Assembly: GCF_002797675.1 (NCBI RefSeq)
Contig: NZ_PGEX01000001.1
Location: 2,604,001 to 2,668,000, forward strand
Length of the DNA stretch: 64,000 nt
DNA from: Hallerella succinigenes
Lineage (GTDB): Bacteria; Fibrobacterota; Fibrobacteria; Fibrobacterales; Fibrobacteraceae
Direction: 5' to 3'
The notes beneath the pieces were generated by a model. The model did not search any database and was not told where the DNA came from. It saw nothing but the letters and a program-made list of their open reading frames with translations. The position numbers were made by a program, and so were the translations under genes. Of this stretch, positions 57,861 to 64,000 are shown piece by piece. The stretch's first letter is position 1. Each line of letters begins with the position of its first letter.

Positions 57861-58952
57861 ATGAAGATTTATTCCGCGCTTGCAGCAATTTTCCTCGGCT
57901 GTTTTTGGATTGCAGCCTGTTCTTCGGAATTCTCGAGTTCCGCTTCTCAGAAGAAAGCTTCTTCTGCAAATGGTAAAACGCGCATGTTGCGCGTTTCCGG
58001 CTACATCGCCGTTCCCGATTCGACGTCTGGAACTTATACGGCCAACGGTGAACTTGTCGCCAAGGCGCAGGTCGATTTGAAAGCGGAAGCGTCTGGAAAG
58101 CTCGTGAAGCTGTATGCGAAGGACGGGCAGAAGGTTTCCAAGGGAACGCTCCTTGCAAAACTCGATGACGCAGAACTCCAGGCGAATTTGAAAAGCGCAA
58201 AAACCGCTTTGGATCTCGCCGAGAAAAAAGCGGCCCGCACCAAGACCCTTTATGGAAAGGACGGTGCGACGGCAGAAGAGCTTGAATCCGCAGAAAGTGC
58301 GGTGGAATCGGCAAAGGCTTCGAAGGAGCTGATCGAAGCTCAGCTTCAAAAGACCGAGGTGCGCGCTCCGTTTGCAGGAACGCTCGGCGTTGTGGAAGTT
58401 TCGGAAGGCGCCTGGATGACTTCCGGGGCGCAGATTGCGACGCTCACGAATACGAGCGAACTCAAGGTAGAATTTGAACTGCCGCAGCGTTTTTCCCGCT
58501 ATGCAAATATGGGAGATAAAGTCGTTTTGATCGACACGGAACAGGGAATTAAAGCCGATGCCAAGATCTGCTTTTTGGATGCGACGATGTCGAATACGAG
58601 CCGTACCCGTAAGGCACGTGCGCTCTTGAAGAATGCGAATGGCAAATTTTTGCCGGGAACCTATGTACGTGTGAAGCTCGACTTTGGCCAGGGCGAACTC
58701 GTGGGAATTCCTGTGCCTTCCGAAGCGGTGACGCTCGATGCGAATGGCGCTTACGTTTTTGTGGTTAAAGATGGCAAGGCGAAAAAGGTGGATGTCCAGA
58801 CCGGTTTAAGAACCCCGATTACGGTCGATGTGGTACAGGGCCTTTCTGCGGGCGATACTGTGGTGGCTTCGGGCCTTATGAATGTGCGTGACGGCATGGG
58901 CATCGAAATCAAGGAATTTTCGAACAACATGAGCTACGGGGTGAATGAATGA
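57861..58952 (+). CDS. RND efflux periplasmic adaptor (membrane fusion protein), lipoprotein
   Basis: A 363-residue adaptor with a lipobox ending at Cys20 (FWIAAC), so lipid-anchored in the periplasm. The lipoyl half-motifs (GELVAKAQVDLKAEASGKLVKLYAKDGQKVSKGTLLAKLDD and KTEVRAPFAGTLGVVEVSEGAWM) flank a coiled-coil hairpin (about residues 108-165, rich in Ala, Glu and Lys). A beta-barrel and membrane-proximal domain follow. It links the inner-membrane pump to the outer-membrane channel. Its stop overlaps the start of the pump gene (ATGA). The channel domain is fused to that pump, so this two-gene operon has all three parts of a tripartite pump. Confidence 0.92.
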   Translation: MKIYSALAAIFLGCFWIAACSSEFSSSASQKKASSANGKTRMLRVSGYIAVPDSTSGTYTANGELVAKAQVDLKAEASGKLVKLYAKDGQKVSKGTLLAKLDDAELQANLKSAKTALDLAEKKAARTKTLYGKDGATAEELESAESAVESAKASKELIEAQLQKTEVRAPFAGTLGVVEVSEGAWMTSGAQIATLTNTSELKVEFELPQRFSRYANMGDKVVLIDTEQGIKADAKICFLDATMSNTSRTRKARALLKNANGKFLPGTYVRVKLDFGQGELVGIPVPSEAVTLDANGAYVFVVKDGKAKKVDVQTGLRTPITVDVVQGLSAGDTVVASGLMNVRDGMGIEIKEFSNNMSYGVNE

Positions 58953-61900
58953 GTTTTTCTACGCTTTCCATTCGTCGCCCGGTTCTGGTGACTGTGCTCT
59001 CTTTGGGCATTATCCTTATCGGTGCTTTTGGCGCTTCGAATCTCGGCATTCGAGAATACCCGAACGTGGATTCTCCGATTATCACGGTCCGTACCACTTA
59101 TACGGGCGCAAATGCTGCGGTTGTGGAAACGGAAGTCACCGAAATCATCGAAGCGTCGGTGAACAGCGCTTCGGGCATTAAGTCGCTGACGTCGACGAGT
59201 TCCGATGGACGCTCTTCGATTCGTGCAGAATTTGAAGTGGGGACGGACCTTGAAGCGGCGGCGAACGATATCCGTGACCGCGTTTCACGTGTGCAGCGAA
59301 AGCTCCCGGACGGTGCCGATGCGCCTGTCGTTTATAAATCCGATTCGGATTCCGATCCGATCTTGATTGCGAGCCTTCTTTCGGATACCCGTGATGCGAT
59401 GGAACTTTCGGAACTTGCGACGAACGTGGTGAAGGAACGTTTGCAAACGATTCCCGGCGTTTCGGAAGTGAACCTTTGGGGGGCGAAAACGCCGGTGGTG
59501 CGCCTTTGGCTTGATCCACTGCGCATGAAGGCGATGGGCGTAACCGCTTCGGATGTTTCATCCGCGCTTTCGGTGGAAAACGAAGAACTTCCGGCGGGCA
59601 AAATTGAAGGCCAGACGATGGATCTTTCGATTCGCACGCTTGGTCGTTTGAACAGCCCTTCGGATTTTAATTCGATTCCGGTGAAGATCGCTGCGGACGG
59701 TTCCATTGTGAAACTTTCCGATGTGGCGCAGGTCCATTACGAGCCGATGGATACACGAACCGGTTTTAAGCGTAACGGCAAGAACGTGATTTCGGTGGCG
59801 GTGATTGCACAGCCCGGTTCGAACCATGTGGCGATTGCCGATGAATTTTACAAGCGTGTGGAAGCGCTTCGCCGTGATTTGCCATCGGATATTCAGATTT
59901 TGAGCGGGCTTGATACTTCGGTGAATATTCGTTCTTCGATTCAAGAAGTGATCGAGACTATTTTCATTTCCTTTTTGCTCGTGATTGCGGTGATTTTTCT
60001 CTTTTTGCGAGAAGCGCGGACGACGCTCATTCCAATGGTCGTGATTCCCGTTTCGATTGTGGGAAGCTTCTTTGTGCTTTATCTGTTTGACTTTTCGATC
60101 AATGTGCTGACTCTTCTTGCGATGGTGCTTGCGATTGGCCTTGTGGTAGATGATGCGATTGTGATCGTGGAAAACATTTACCAGAAGATTGAACGCAATA
60201 TGTCGCCGAAGGCGGCTGCGGTAGCGGGCATTCGGGAAATCTTTTTTGCGGTGATTGCGACGTCCGTGGTGTTGATGGCGGTGTTCGTGCCGATGCTTGC
60301 CTTGGGCGGAACGACAGGGCTTCTCTTTCGCGAATTCGTGGCGGTGATGATCGGGACAGTCGTGATTTCGACTTTCTGCGCATTGACGCTCACGCCGATG
60401 CTTTGCTCGAAGATTTTGCGTGTGCAGAATAAGGGTGTTCTCTACAATGCGACCGAGCCTTTCTTTGAATGGCTGAACGAAATTTACAATAAGCTGTTGA
60501 ACGCATTCCTCCGCGTCCGTGGACTGATCTTTGTGATTATCGGAGCGTTGATGGTGGCAGCCTACTTCTGCTTCACGAACCTTTCTACCGAAATGGCTCC
60601 GCAGGAAGACAGCAACATGTTCATGGTGAACATCTCTGCGCCGGAAGGAACGGGCCTTGGTCAGACGAAAAAAATGTCCGAAGCTTTTGTCGAAGAAATG
60701 ACGAGCCTTATGGATTCGACGGAATACGAAGAAATTCAGGCGGGCGCAAGGTCGGGCGGAAGCTCCATGATCCGTGTGACGTTAAACCGCGACAAATCCA
60801 AGCGTCGCTCGCAAAGCGAAATCGCAAGACAGGTTCAGATTTTGGGCGCGAACTATCCGGATTTGCGCGTGATGGTCTTTGAACCGCAGAGCATTAGCAC
60901 GAGCCGCGGTGGCTTACCGGTGCAGTTTGTATTGCAGGCGGGTGAAATCGAAGTGCTTCGCGAACTGCTTCCGAAGTTCACAGCCGAAGCGGAAAAAAGT
61001 CCAGTATTTAGCGTGGTCAATGCGGATCTCAAATTCACCAAGCCGGAACTTCACGTGGAAATCAATCGCGACAAGGCGCATGACCAGGGCGTTTCCGTCG
61101 ATGACATTGCATCTACAATCGCTCTCACAATGGGCGACCAGACCTATGGCGAATTTTACAAGGAAGGCCGTCAGTATGATATCATCGGAGCTGTGCCATA
61201 TCAGTACCGCGCATCTCCGATGCATTTGGATGAACTCAGCGTTCGCAACGGTTCCGGTGAAATGGTTTCGGTTTCGAACTTTATCACTTATAAAGAAAAG
61301 TCCGCATCGCCTTCGCTACCGCGGTATAACCGCTTCAGTGCGGCGACGATTTCGGCGGGTCTAATGCCCGGGAAAACGGTGGGTGACGGCGTGGAAGAAA
61401 TGCGCCGCATTGCGAAAACTGTGATTCCGGATTCGCTGAATATCCAGACGGAACTCACCGGGACTTCGAAGGAATATGAAGAAAGTTCTTCAGGACTTTA
61501 CGTTGTCTTTTTGTTCGCGCTTGCCTGCATATTTCTTGTGCTTGCGGGACAGTTTGAAAGTTACCGCGCTCCGTTCGTCACCTTTTTTACGGTGCCGCTT
61601 GCGATTGCGGGGGCTGTCATTTCGCTGTACTTCTTTGGACAGACCTTGAACATTTTTAGTGAAATCGCTTTGATTCTGTTGCTTGGCCTCGTGACGAAAA
61701 ACGGAATCTTGATCGTTGAATTTGCAAACCAGATCGCCGAGCGTACGGGCTGCTCTCGTCTTGCTGCGGCCAAGAAAGCGGCTCGTTTGCGCTTCCGTCC
61801 GATTCTCATGACGAGCCTTTCGACGGTTCTCGGCGCACTTCCGCTGATCTTGACGGGAACGCCAAGCCGCATTGCGATGGGCGTAACGATTGTGTGCGGC

Positions 61901-63355
61901 TTAACTTTTGCGACGTTCCTGACGCTCTTTGTGGTGCCTGCAGCGTATACCTTCTTTGCGAGCATACCTGAACGCAGTGCCAAAGTGGACCCGGATGCGA
62001 ATGCGGACCCGAATACGGGCGTAAAGCTTGCTTCGATGCTCTTGCCGATGATTTTTGCAGGAGTCCTTCTCCTTCCGCAAACGTCAAATGCGGCGGTGCT
62101 TTCTCCCGAAGAAGCGGTGCAAACGGCAATTGAAAAGAATGCTTCCGCATTGATCTATGAAGAGAATGTAAAAAGTGCAGAAGCGAATGTAAAAAGTTCG
62201 CGCAAGGGACTTTTGCCGACCGTAGACCTTTCGCTTTCGCGTTATTACAGCTACGGCGATGCGTATTCCAAAACACAGGCGGGTGTGACGTCGGATATCG
62301 ATGGCGATTTAGGTCATAGCGATGCTTTCCAGATAGCGGTCAATTATACGGTCTTTGACGGCTTTAACGATATTGCTTCGTACAAGGCAAGCAAGGCGCA
62401 GGTGGAAAGTTCCAAGGCGGCGTTACGTGCCGCGCGGGAATCCTTGGCGGCAAATGTGCTTACCGCATACTTTAGCGCGGTGAATGCGAAGTCGGCACTT
62501 GTCCTTGCGGATTCGAACCTTTCTGTTTCGAGAGAGCGCTGCGAACTCGCCAAGAACAAGTATGAAGCGGGCTCGATGACGCGTCTTGATTTTCTTTCTG
62601 CGCAAATGGACTTTTCAAGCGACAGCTCCAAGTACCTTTCGCTCGAATCAAGCCTTTCTTCTGCCATCCGAACCTTGGATGAATTCTTGGGAGGTGGCGT
62701 CATTCACAGCGGAAACGATCTGCCGGATTCGATCGCCGTCGAACGGAAACCTTTTTGGACGTCGGAAGAAGGCCTCGCCCGTGCCAAGGAACGTGCCTTG
62801 GAAAACAATGCGGACCTTGCGGCCGCCAAGGCGCAGATGAACTATGCGCAGGTGAACCGCCAAGGTTCGAATTCGAATCTTTATCCGAAGCTCAATTTGC
62901 ACGGTTCTTGGAATGCGACTGCCAGCGAATCGGATAAGTCAAATCCAGAAAAAGCGAACAGCCAGTATTTTAAGGTCGGTGCCGCTTTGACGTGGAACCT
63001 GTTCAACGGTCTTGCGGACAATGCGGCATCGGAATCGGCGAAAATCGCGGAACGGTCTGCGGAACTGCAGGTCGAAAATGTACGCCTGAACGTAGAAACG
63101 CTAGTGTCGAATGCAGTCGAAGCTCATCTCCGTTCTTTAGACGCTCTGCAGGTTGCTGAAGGTAATGCGGAACTCGCCGCGGAAATGTTGAAGCTTGGCG
63201 AAGAACGCTTAAAGACGGGAAGCATCACGAACTTTGAATTCCGTGAAACGCAGAGCCAGTGGAGATCTGCACGTGAAGCGCTCCTTTCGGCCCGAATCGC
63301 CACCCGGACGGCGGAAATCCAGGTAAAGCTTTTGACGGGCGATATTCTGAAGTAG
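58949..63355 (+). CDS. RND efflux pump fused to a TolC-family outer-membrane channel
   Basis: A 1468-residue polypeptide in one open frame. Residues 1 to about 1010 form a complete HAE-1-like RND permease: the start RRPVLVTVLSLGIILIGAFG, periplasmic domains, TM4 proton-relay Asp401-Asp402 in GLVVDDAIVIVENI, and the TM10 Lys in GLVTKNGILIVEF. Residues from about 1050 to the end are a TolC-type factor (LSPEEAVQTAIEKNASALIYEENVKSAEA, then NYTVFDGFND, and a second repeat with LTWNLFNGLADN). Between them, residues 1025-1049 read as a signal peptide: VKLASMLLPMIFAGVLLLPQ, then TSNAA, with Ser-x-Ala before a possible cleavage after Ala1048. A 12-helix pump ends in the cytoplasm, so this segment would carry the TolC part across the membrane and may then be cut. 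Separate translation from an internal ATG at 62036 is possible, but no ribosome binding site is seen. Confidence 0.92.
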   Translation: MSFSTLSIRRPVLVTVLSLGIILIGAFGASNLGIREYPNVDSPIITVRTTYTGANAAVVETEVTEIIEASVNSASGIKSLTSTSSDGRSSIRAEFEVGTDLEAAANDIRDRVSRVQRKLPDGADAPVVYKSDSDSDPILIASLLSDTRDAMELSELATNVVKERLQTIPGVSEVNLWGAKTPVVRLWLDPLRMKAMGVTASDVSSALSVENEELPAGKIEGQTMDLSIRTLGRLNSPSDFNSIPVKIAADGSIVKLSDVAQVHYEPMDTRTGFKRNGKNVISVAVIAQPGSNHVAIADEFYKRVEALRRDLPSDIQILSGLDTSVNIRSSIQEVIETIFISFLLVIAVIFLFLREARTTLIPMVVIPVSIVGSFFVLYLFDFSINVLTLLAMVLAIGLVVDDAIVIVENIYQKIERNMSPKAAAVAGIREIFFAVIATSVVLMAVFVPMLALGGTTGLLFREFVAVMIGTVVISTFCALTLTPMLCSKILRVQNKGVLYNATEPFFEWLNEIYNKLLNAFLRVRGLIFVIIGALMVAAYFCFTNLSTEMAPQEDSNMFMVNISAPEGTGLGQTKKMSEAFVEEMTSLMDSTEYEEIQAGARSGGSSMIRVTLNRDKSKRRSQSEIARQVQILGANYPDLRVMVFEPQSISTSRGGLPVQFVLQAGEIEVLRELLPKFTAEAEKSPVFSVVNADLKFTKPELHVEINRDKAHDQGVSVDDIASTIALTMGDQTYGEFYKEGRQYDIIGAVPYQYRASPMHLDELSVRNGSGEMVSVSNFITYKEKSASPSLPRYNRFSAATISAGLMPGKTVGDGVEEMRRIAKTVIPDSLNIQTELTGTSKEYEESSSGLYVVFLFALACIFLVLAGQFESYRAPFVTFFTVPLAIAGAVISLYFFGQTLNIFSEIALILLLGLVTKNGILIVEFANQIAERTGCSRLAAAKKAARLRFRPILMTSLSTVLGALPLILTGTPSRIAMGVTIVCGLTFATFLTLFVVPAAYTFFASIPERSAKVDPDANADPNTGVKLASMLLPMIFAGVLLLPQTSNAAVLSPEEAVQTAIEKNASALIYEENVKSAEANVKSSRKGLLPTVDLSLSRYYSYGDAYSKTQAGVTSDIDGDLGHSDAFQIAVNYTVFDGFNDIASYKASKAQVESSKAALRAARESLAANVLTAYFSAVNAKSALVLADSNLSVSRERCELAKNKYEAGSMTRLDFLSAQMDFSSDSSKYLSLESSLSSAIRTLDEFLGGGVIHSGNDLPDSIAVERKPFWTSEEGLARAKERALENNADLAAAKAQMNYAQVNRQGSNSNLYPKLNLHGSWNATASESDKSNPEKANSQYFKVGAALTWNLFNGLADNAASESAKIAERSAELQVENVRLNVETLVSNAVEAHLRSLDALQVAEGNAELAAEMLKLGEERLKTGSITNFEFRETQSQWRSAREALLSARIATRTAEIQVKLLTGDILK

Positions 63356-63430: not shown

Positions 63431-64000
63431 ATGAATAAAATTCTGTGTTTGGTGGTATGTTTGACCGCTTTCCTTTTTGCCGAAGAAAAGCTCCCGATTT
63501 ATAAAACGGATGACCCCTCTTCCAAAATTATAGGCTACCTGACCGTTTCGGATGAGGTGGAAGAACTTACGATTCCGCCGAAAAAGAAGAAGGTGGTGAA
63601 GTACGTGAAGCAGCGCAATTCTAAAAAGAAAAAACGCGTGGTGAAGTACGAGGAACTTCCACCGGGACCTCCGCCGGAGTATATTCCGGTGAAGACTCGC
63701 TTTGCCAAAAAAGGCTATGTACGCCGTGCGGATCTCGCCCGCATGAAGGAGCGTGCAACGGACTTGAGCGGAATCTATTCTTCGCCGACGGGAAGCGTTA
63801 TTCTTTCCAAATCGCCAAATTCTCCGGGGCGGTTCAATATTGTCATTCAGAACGGACATGGAAGATTCCGTGCTGCGATTTCCATGGGGAACGTGCAGGC
63901 GATGAATCAGTTTGGGCATACACGCTTCAACTATGCGGAACCGGGCTGCGTCGTGGATGTGGACTTGTTTGAACGTAAAGTGCGCGTGGCGCAAAAGGGC
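63431..64000 (+). CDS. Secreted basic protein, C-terminus outside window
   Basis: An open frame of 190 codons from the ATG at 63431 to the window edge, without a stop. The start is a short signal peptide (MNKILCLVVCLTAFLFAEE). Next comes an SH3-like part (PIYKTDDPSSKIIGYLTVSDEVEEL), then a Lys-rich stretch (PPKKKKVVKYVKQRNSKKKK) and a Pro-rich piece (ELPPGPPPEY). The region from about residue 116 (GIYSSPTGSVILSK onwards) is strand-rich. No family is recognised. It begins 75 bases after the RND-TolC gene; a T-rich stretch between them follows only a weak hairpin. Confidence 0.6.
   Translation, partial: MNKILCLVVCLTAFLFAEEKLPIYKTDDPSSKIIGYLTVSDEVEELTIPPKKKKVVKYVKQRNSKKKKRVVKYEELPPGPPPEYIPVKTRFAKKGYVRRADLARMKERATDLSGIYSSPTGSVILSKSPNSPGRFNIVIQNGHGRFRAAISMGNVQAMNQFGHTRFNYAEPGCVVDVDLFERKVRVAQKG

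Follow-up and report, generated by a model that had tools for sequence, protein, structure and literature searches.

In the tripartite efflux systems AcrAB-TolC and MexAB-OprM, the adaptor gene lies in front, and the pump and the channel are separate products, each with its own start. In assembled pumps, a long distance separates the N-terminus of the TolC-family channel from the inner membrane. Few descriptions exist of bacterial polyproteins whose subunits go to two different membranes. The cytochrome b/c1 precursor encoded by fbcH of Bradyrhizobium combines a polytopic membrane protein and an exported protein in one chain, which is cut at an internal signal sequence. In the Streptomyces Rieske protein, an internal signal peptide behind the membrane segments exports the C-terminal domain (PMC13186574). 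A literature search for natural fusions of an RND pump with an outer-membrane factor (OMF) found no paper.

The window analysed here, which is the whole stretch of 64,000 nucleotides, comes from Hallerella succinigenes, a gut-dwelling relative of Fibrobacter intestinalis. It shares with AcrAB-TolC and MexAB-OprM the domains, the catalytic residues and the adaptor gene in front; however, the pump and the channel are encoded in one chain.

Pump and channel in one reading frame

The open reading frame at 58949–63355 of the forward strand starts with ATG and encodes 1468 amino acids without an internal stop, its stop codon being called at 63353–63355 (+). The single uninterrupted frame described in the sequence-only reading was therefore found again. 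Directly 5′ of it, and overlapping it by 4 nt (ATGA), lies the gene of a periplasmic adaptor (RND_mfp; 57861–58952, +), which scored 240.9 bits with TIGR01730 against a cut-off of 94.9 and whose product carries a lipobox-like GCFWIAAC at the N-terminus.

Residues 1–1003 (58949–61957, +) form the RND permease half, as determined from profile matches and residue alignment. This half can be aligned end to end with AcrB/MexB and matches ACR_tran over its full length (residues 4–1003, E 2e-269). The proton-relay residues that had been named from the letters are in place, namely the Asp pair D401 and D402 in TM4 and the Lys K917 in TM10. The permease reached 703 bits with the HAE-1 profile TIGR00915 (cut-off 940) and 336 bits with the CzcA profile TIGR00914 (cut-off 701); it agrees with the class proposed earlier and is named HAE-1-like because both scores are under the curated NCBIfam cut-offs.

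Residues 1049–1468 (62093–63352, +) form the OMF half. Pfam gave two OEP stretches, the best one starting at residue 1053 (E 2e-58), and the AlphaFold model of residues 1001–1468 has the TolC topology, with TolC and OprJ/OprM-type channels as the top PDB matches (E 5e-16 and up). The two OEP repeats and the predicted TolC fold bear out the claim of a full TolC-like factor, which is missed when the gene is annotated as a mere RND permease. The OMF has no signal peptide at the N-terminus of a gene product of its own; the putative signal peptide is internal.

In the complete home genome (3.13 Mb), the fusion gene is the sole close HAE-type RND gene, and the other RND and OMF genes found are one distant RND gene (26% identity) and three OMF genes. 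The genome also encodes a signal peptidase of family S26. At 63431–64000 (+), the window contains a secreted-looking protein without a Pfam match, which is also present 3′ of the fusion gene in the other genomes of the genus g1.

Anatomy of the junction

The order between TM12 and the OMF is a drifting hydrophilic linker, a hydrophobic run and a c-region ending in small-x-Ala. On the basis of the alignment and dN/dS, the variable linker comprises residues 1004–1024 (61958–62020, +) and would be cytoplasmic if the topology is canonical. The signal-peptide-like segment, delimited using the alignment, a cleavage matrix and AlphaFold, comprises residues 1025–1048 (62021–62092, +) and reads VKLASMLLPMIFAGVLLLPQTSNA↓A, where the arrow marks the predicted cut by signal peptidase I after Ala1048. 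It consists of the n-region VK, a hydrophobic core and the c-region PQTSNA, so that the hydrophobic run closes in Ser-Asn-Ala, in accordance with the Ser-x-Ala site previously noticed within residues 1025–1049.

When the 12 fusions of the Fibrobacteraceae are aligned, Ala1048 at position −1 is invariant in all of them, and it is the sole invariant residue between Ala1004 and Leu1051. Residues 1005–1050 otherwise vary freely, and the hydrophobic run is always ahead of Ala1048. In 11 of the 12, position −3 is occupied by A, V or S, and the remaining fusion (L010) has AAA↓E instead, one residue later. The n-region of the window gene is weak, with a single Lys (1026) behind the acidic linker; a Lys is located nearby in the alignment in most relatives.

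The dN/dS values of the two halves (0.03–0.05 and 0.05–0.09) indicate strong purifying selection on both, and those at the linker (0.10–0.47) and the join (about 0.2–0.46) are relaxed, still constrained. The genes of the genus differ by many synonymous changes, yet the frame and both halves have been kept. In the AlphaFold model, a low-confidence helix spans residues 1023–1039, and the confidence rises from <50 to >80 just past residue 1048, where the TolC fold begins; the first helix of the OMF starts about 4 residues past the predicted cut site.

A small cleavage matrix, which was home-made from E. coli signal peptides and is noisy, ranked SNA↓A first of 1448 positions in the window protein and the junction site first in just 4 of the 12 relatives. 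The simple AxA rule also matches inside several membrane segments of the RND half, which means that the presence of the motif alone is unspecific. Both were dropped as stand-alone evidence for this lack of specificity.

Distribution and history in the Fibrobacteraceae

The single frame is carried by 12 genomes of five Fibrobacteraceae genera, consisting of six g1, two g10, one g8, one g3 and two g5 genomes, with one of the two g5 fusions cut by a contig end. The set comprises a complete genome as well as the isolate F. intestinalis ATCC 43854 (L037, which matches the g1 genome G010).

In the RND trees, the fused genes do not form one clade, and forcing them together was rejected (p 8e-7). Unfused genes from the F. 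succinogenes-like g2, from g4 and from one g5 genome (G020) are nested among the fused ones. The g2 pumps stop after DASKMA and the G020 pump after DASKMT, which is where the fused junction starts; in g3, g5, g8 and g10, this junction begins with the same letters (DASKMAGFLLP, DATKMAGFLLP). In the g2 genomes and G020, no OMF was found 3′ of the pump and no orthologue elsewhere in the genome. A move of the OMF to another site was rejected, the best other OMFs being merely about 25% identical. A tblastn search for OMF remnants in g2 found none. In G020 (L079), however, the pump stop is directly followed by a decayed, frame-broken stretch left over from the signal peptide and the first OMF residues, and this locus is a fusion caught while being lost.

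The truncations in g2 and G020 end at the identical codon position. Behind a highly variable linker, the g2 pumps (L018–L035, L081–L083) keep an invariant C-terminal tail, DASKMA; this tail is either a fossil of the junction or a functional tail.

Among more distant Fibrobacterota, separate adaptor, pump and channel genes are present in G011, which belongs to the family, and in f3 and f10. In the order-level outgroup f2 (L087), the pump is unfused and no OMF adjoins it; a long open frame at this locus was rejected as a fusion because it is a GC-rich open frame.

As far as can be read from these sequences, one ancestral fusion, after which the OMF was lost at least twice, is the simplest account and the best reading, and a single loss for g2 and g4 together was not rejected (p 0.18). 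Separate fusions in the g3/g5 and g1/g8/g10 lineages would fit the unfused pump of the closest outgroup, family f2, without a neighbouring OMF; the parsimony counts are close, and the placement of G003 is not settled by the tree. Such separate events are nevertheless improbable, given that the fused OMFs are 41–93% identical to that of the window, compared with about 25% for any other OMF in the family, and share the junction, while the unfused g2 and G020 pumps end in its DASKM and G020 retains its OMF remnant. A single fusion with later losses also bears on the purpose that the sequence-only reading had attached to the fusion, a fixed 1:1 stoichiometry of pump and channel, which is unsupported because the family discarded the OMF half at least twice.

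Fusions in Bacteroidota

The sequence-only reading suspected CzcA-type RND-TolC fusions in Bacteroidetes and proposed a search for single-chain proteins with a comparison of their junctions. The search, seeded with a Winogradskyella CzcA-TolC fusion and applied to a sample of 99 Bacteroidota genomes, found CzcA-OMF fusions with a signal-peptide junction in at least 30 of them. The 30 loci that were read across the join are stop-free; all have the hydrophobic run, and 29 have a small-x-A/S↓Q site. Two HAE-1-type fusions were also found in the 99 genomes, in G244 (L119, ISA↓Q) and G160 (L127, lipobox LLGSC), for which NCBIfam and Pfam agree on an HAE-1/AcrB-type permease with an OMF. The suggestion that the window gene is special because of its HAE-1 class is not tenable in view of these two fusions and the common CzcA-OMF type.

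The fusion in L127 (2854–7416, +) comprises 1521 amino acids, with an HAE-1 pump, a NodT-type channel and a lipobox at the join, and represents a signal peptidase II version. Common ancestry of the Fibrobacteraceae fusion and L119 is unsupported by the RND tree, in which L119 lies outside the Fibrobacteraceae clade. Long open frames in G165, G207, G183 and G242 were rejected as fusions, since each consists of two same-frame genes split by a stop. In L123 (G165) and L120 (G207), the pump and channel are in the same frame and are parted by a single stop and a few residues, which is a plausible intermediate towards fusion.

RND-OMF fusions that carry a signal peptide at the join are widespread in public Bacteroidota genomes. 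The Fibrobacteraceae fusion is an HAE-1-like variant that originated separately, and its history of fusion and loss can be read from the sequences. The design is genuine and instructive; having arisen repeatedly in Bacteroidota, it is not unique.

Probable processing of the fusion product

The join between the pump and the channel resembles a functional export signal, and the exported chain is therefore probably split into two proteins. The product is likely to be a pump-channel polyprotein that is exported by Sec via segment 13 and cut by signal peptidase I after Ala1048. In the ancestor of this clade within the Fibrobacteraceae, the pump and channel genes at the end of an adaptor-pump-channel operon would have become one frame, in which the signal peptide of the channel was kept at the join. 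The 12-segment RND pump would be translated first; the retained signal peptide, whose start lies in the cytoplasm, would then insert as a 13th segment (N-in/C-out), and the OMF chain would pass through Sec to the periplasm. After cleavage, the OMF would fold, trimerise and enter the outer membrane, the pump would retain the spent helix at its C-terminus, and the adaptor, pump and channel would assemble as an ordinary tripartite efflux complex, which may serve drug efflux. A transcriptome study of F. succinogenes UWB7 reports that efflux genes, which may or may not include the orthologue of this pump, are induced beside rumen fungi (PMC8406330).

Of the earlier proposal of a 13th segment and signal peptidase I, the retained signal peptide is upheld by comparison, and the cleavage appears very likely from the constant Ala at −1, the Bacteroidota sites and the lack of a conserved internal start. 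Production of the OMF mostly by internal initiation inside the pump gene, with the fused product being minor, is unlikely. Candidate starts exist as ATGs at residues 1030 and 1034 of the window gene, as ATGs at the homologous SKM/TKM in g8, g10, g3 and L015, and as a GTG upstream of the hydrophobic core in L011. However, their positions are not conserved, L009 and L017 lack any type of start codon 5′ of the core, most candidates would give a signal peptide without a positive charge, and several Bacteroidota fusions also have no ATG at the join. None of the candidates has an SD motif, which is weak evidence in a genome that seldom uses them (8 of 32 long ORFs). The separately initiated TolC considered in the sequence-only reading is disfavoured on these grounds, the argument from SD motifs being subject to their rarity.

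An uncleaved protein of 13 segments, in which the junction helix is a permanent anchor tethering the channel to the pump, is very unlikely. The hydrophobicity of the junction would suffice for a signal anchor, but such an anchor has no need for an invariant Ala at −1. What argues most strongly for a cut in the cell is that fusions of separate origin keep a cleavable signal, in one case a lipobox. Moreover, judging from the predicted model, a tether of about 4 residues between the cut site and the first OMF helix would be too short to bridge the distance between the inner membrane and the place where the TolC N-terminus is known to lie, which favours cleavage.

The sister-genera pumps that end at the junction might raise the suspicion of a decaying pseudogene, or of two normal genes that an error in sequencing or assembly has joined, but the OMF is absent altogether there and is not a second gene, and a frameshift or other error at about 61.9–62.1 kb, which was looked for in relatives, is ruled out by the complete frame in 12 independent genomes and by the purifying selection on both halves.

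Comparison with known systems

One bacterial family offers a natural series of an unfused operon, a fused gene and a truncated gene with a remnant, and independent fusions occur elsewhere. We lean slightly towards the view that, in Fibrobacterota and Bacteroidota, internally processed pump-channel polyproteins, cut by signal peptidase I or II, evolved several times as a general route to tripartite efflux pumps, none of these polyproteins having been characterised yet, and that they can revert by truncation at the junction.

The CusA/CzcA-type RND-TolC chains of Bacteroidota (about 1440–1520 amino acids) resemble the window protein in that the RND half precedes the OMF and a signal peptide lies at the join. 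They differ in the heavy-metal class of the permease, in an n-region that is mostly more Lys-rich, in the A↓Q style of cleavage and in their separate origin. The fusions of G244 and G160 combine an AcrB-class permease with an OMF, as in the window, although that of G160 differs in its NodT-type OMF and its signal peptidase II junction. The fbcH precursor differs from the RND-OMF fusion in that it belongs to a respiratory complex and consists of unrelated proteins. The Streptomyces Rieske protein shares the internal signal peptide with the fusion described here, whereas it is an unrelated protein and its export is Tat-dependent (PMC13186574).
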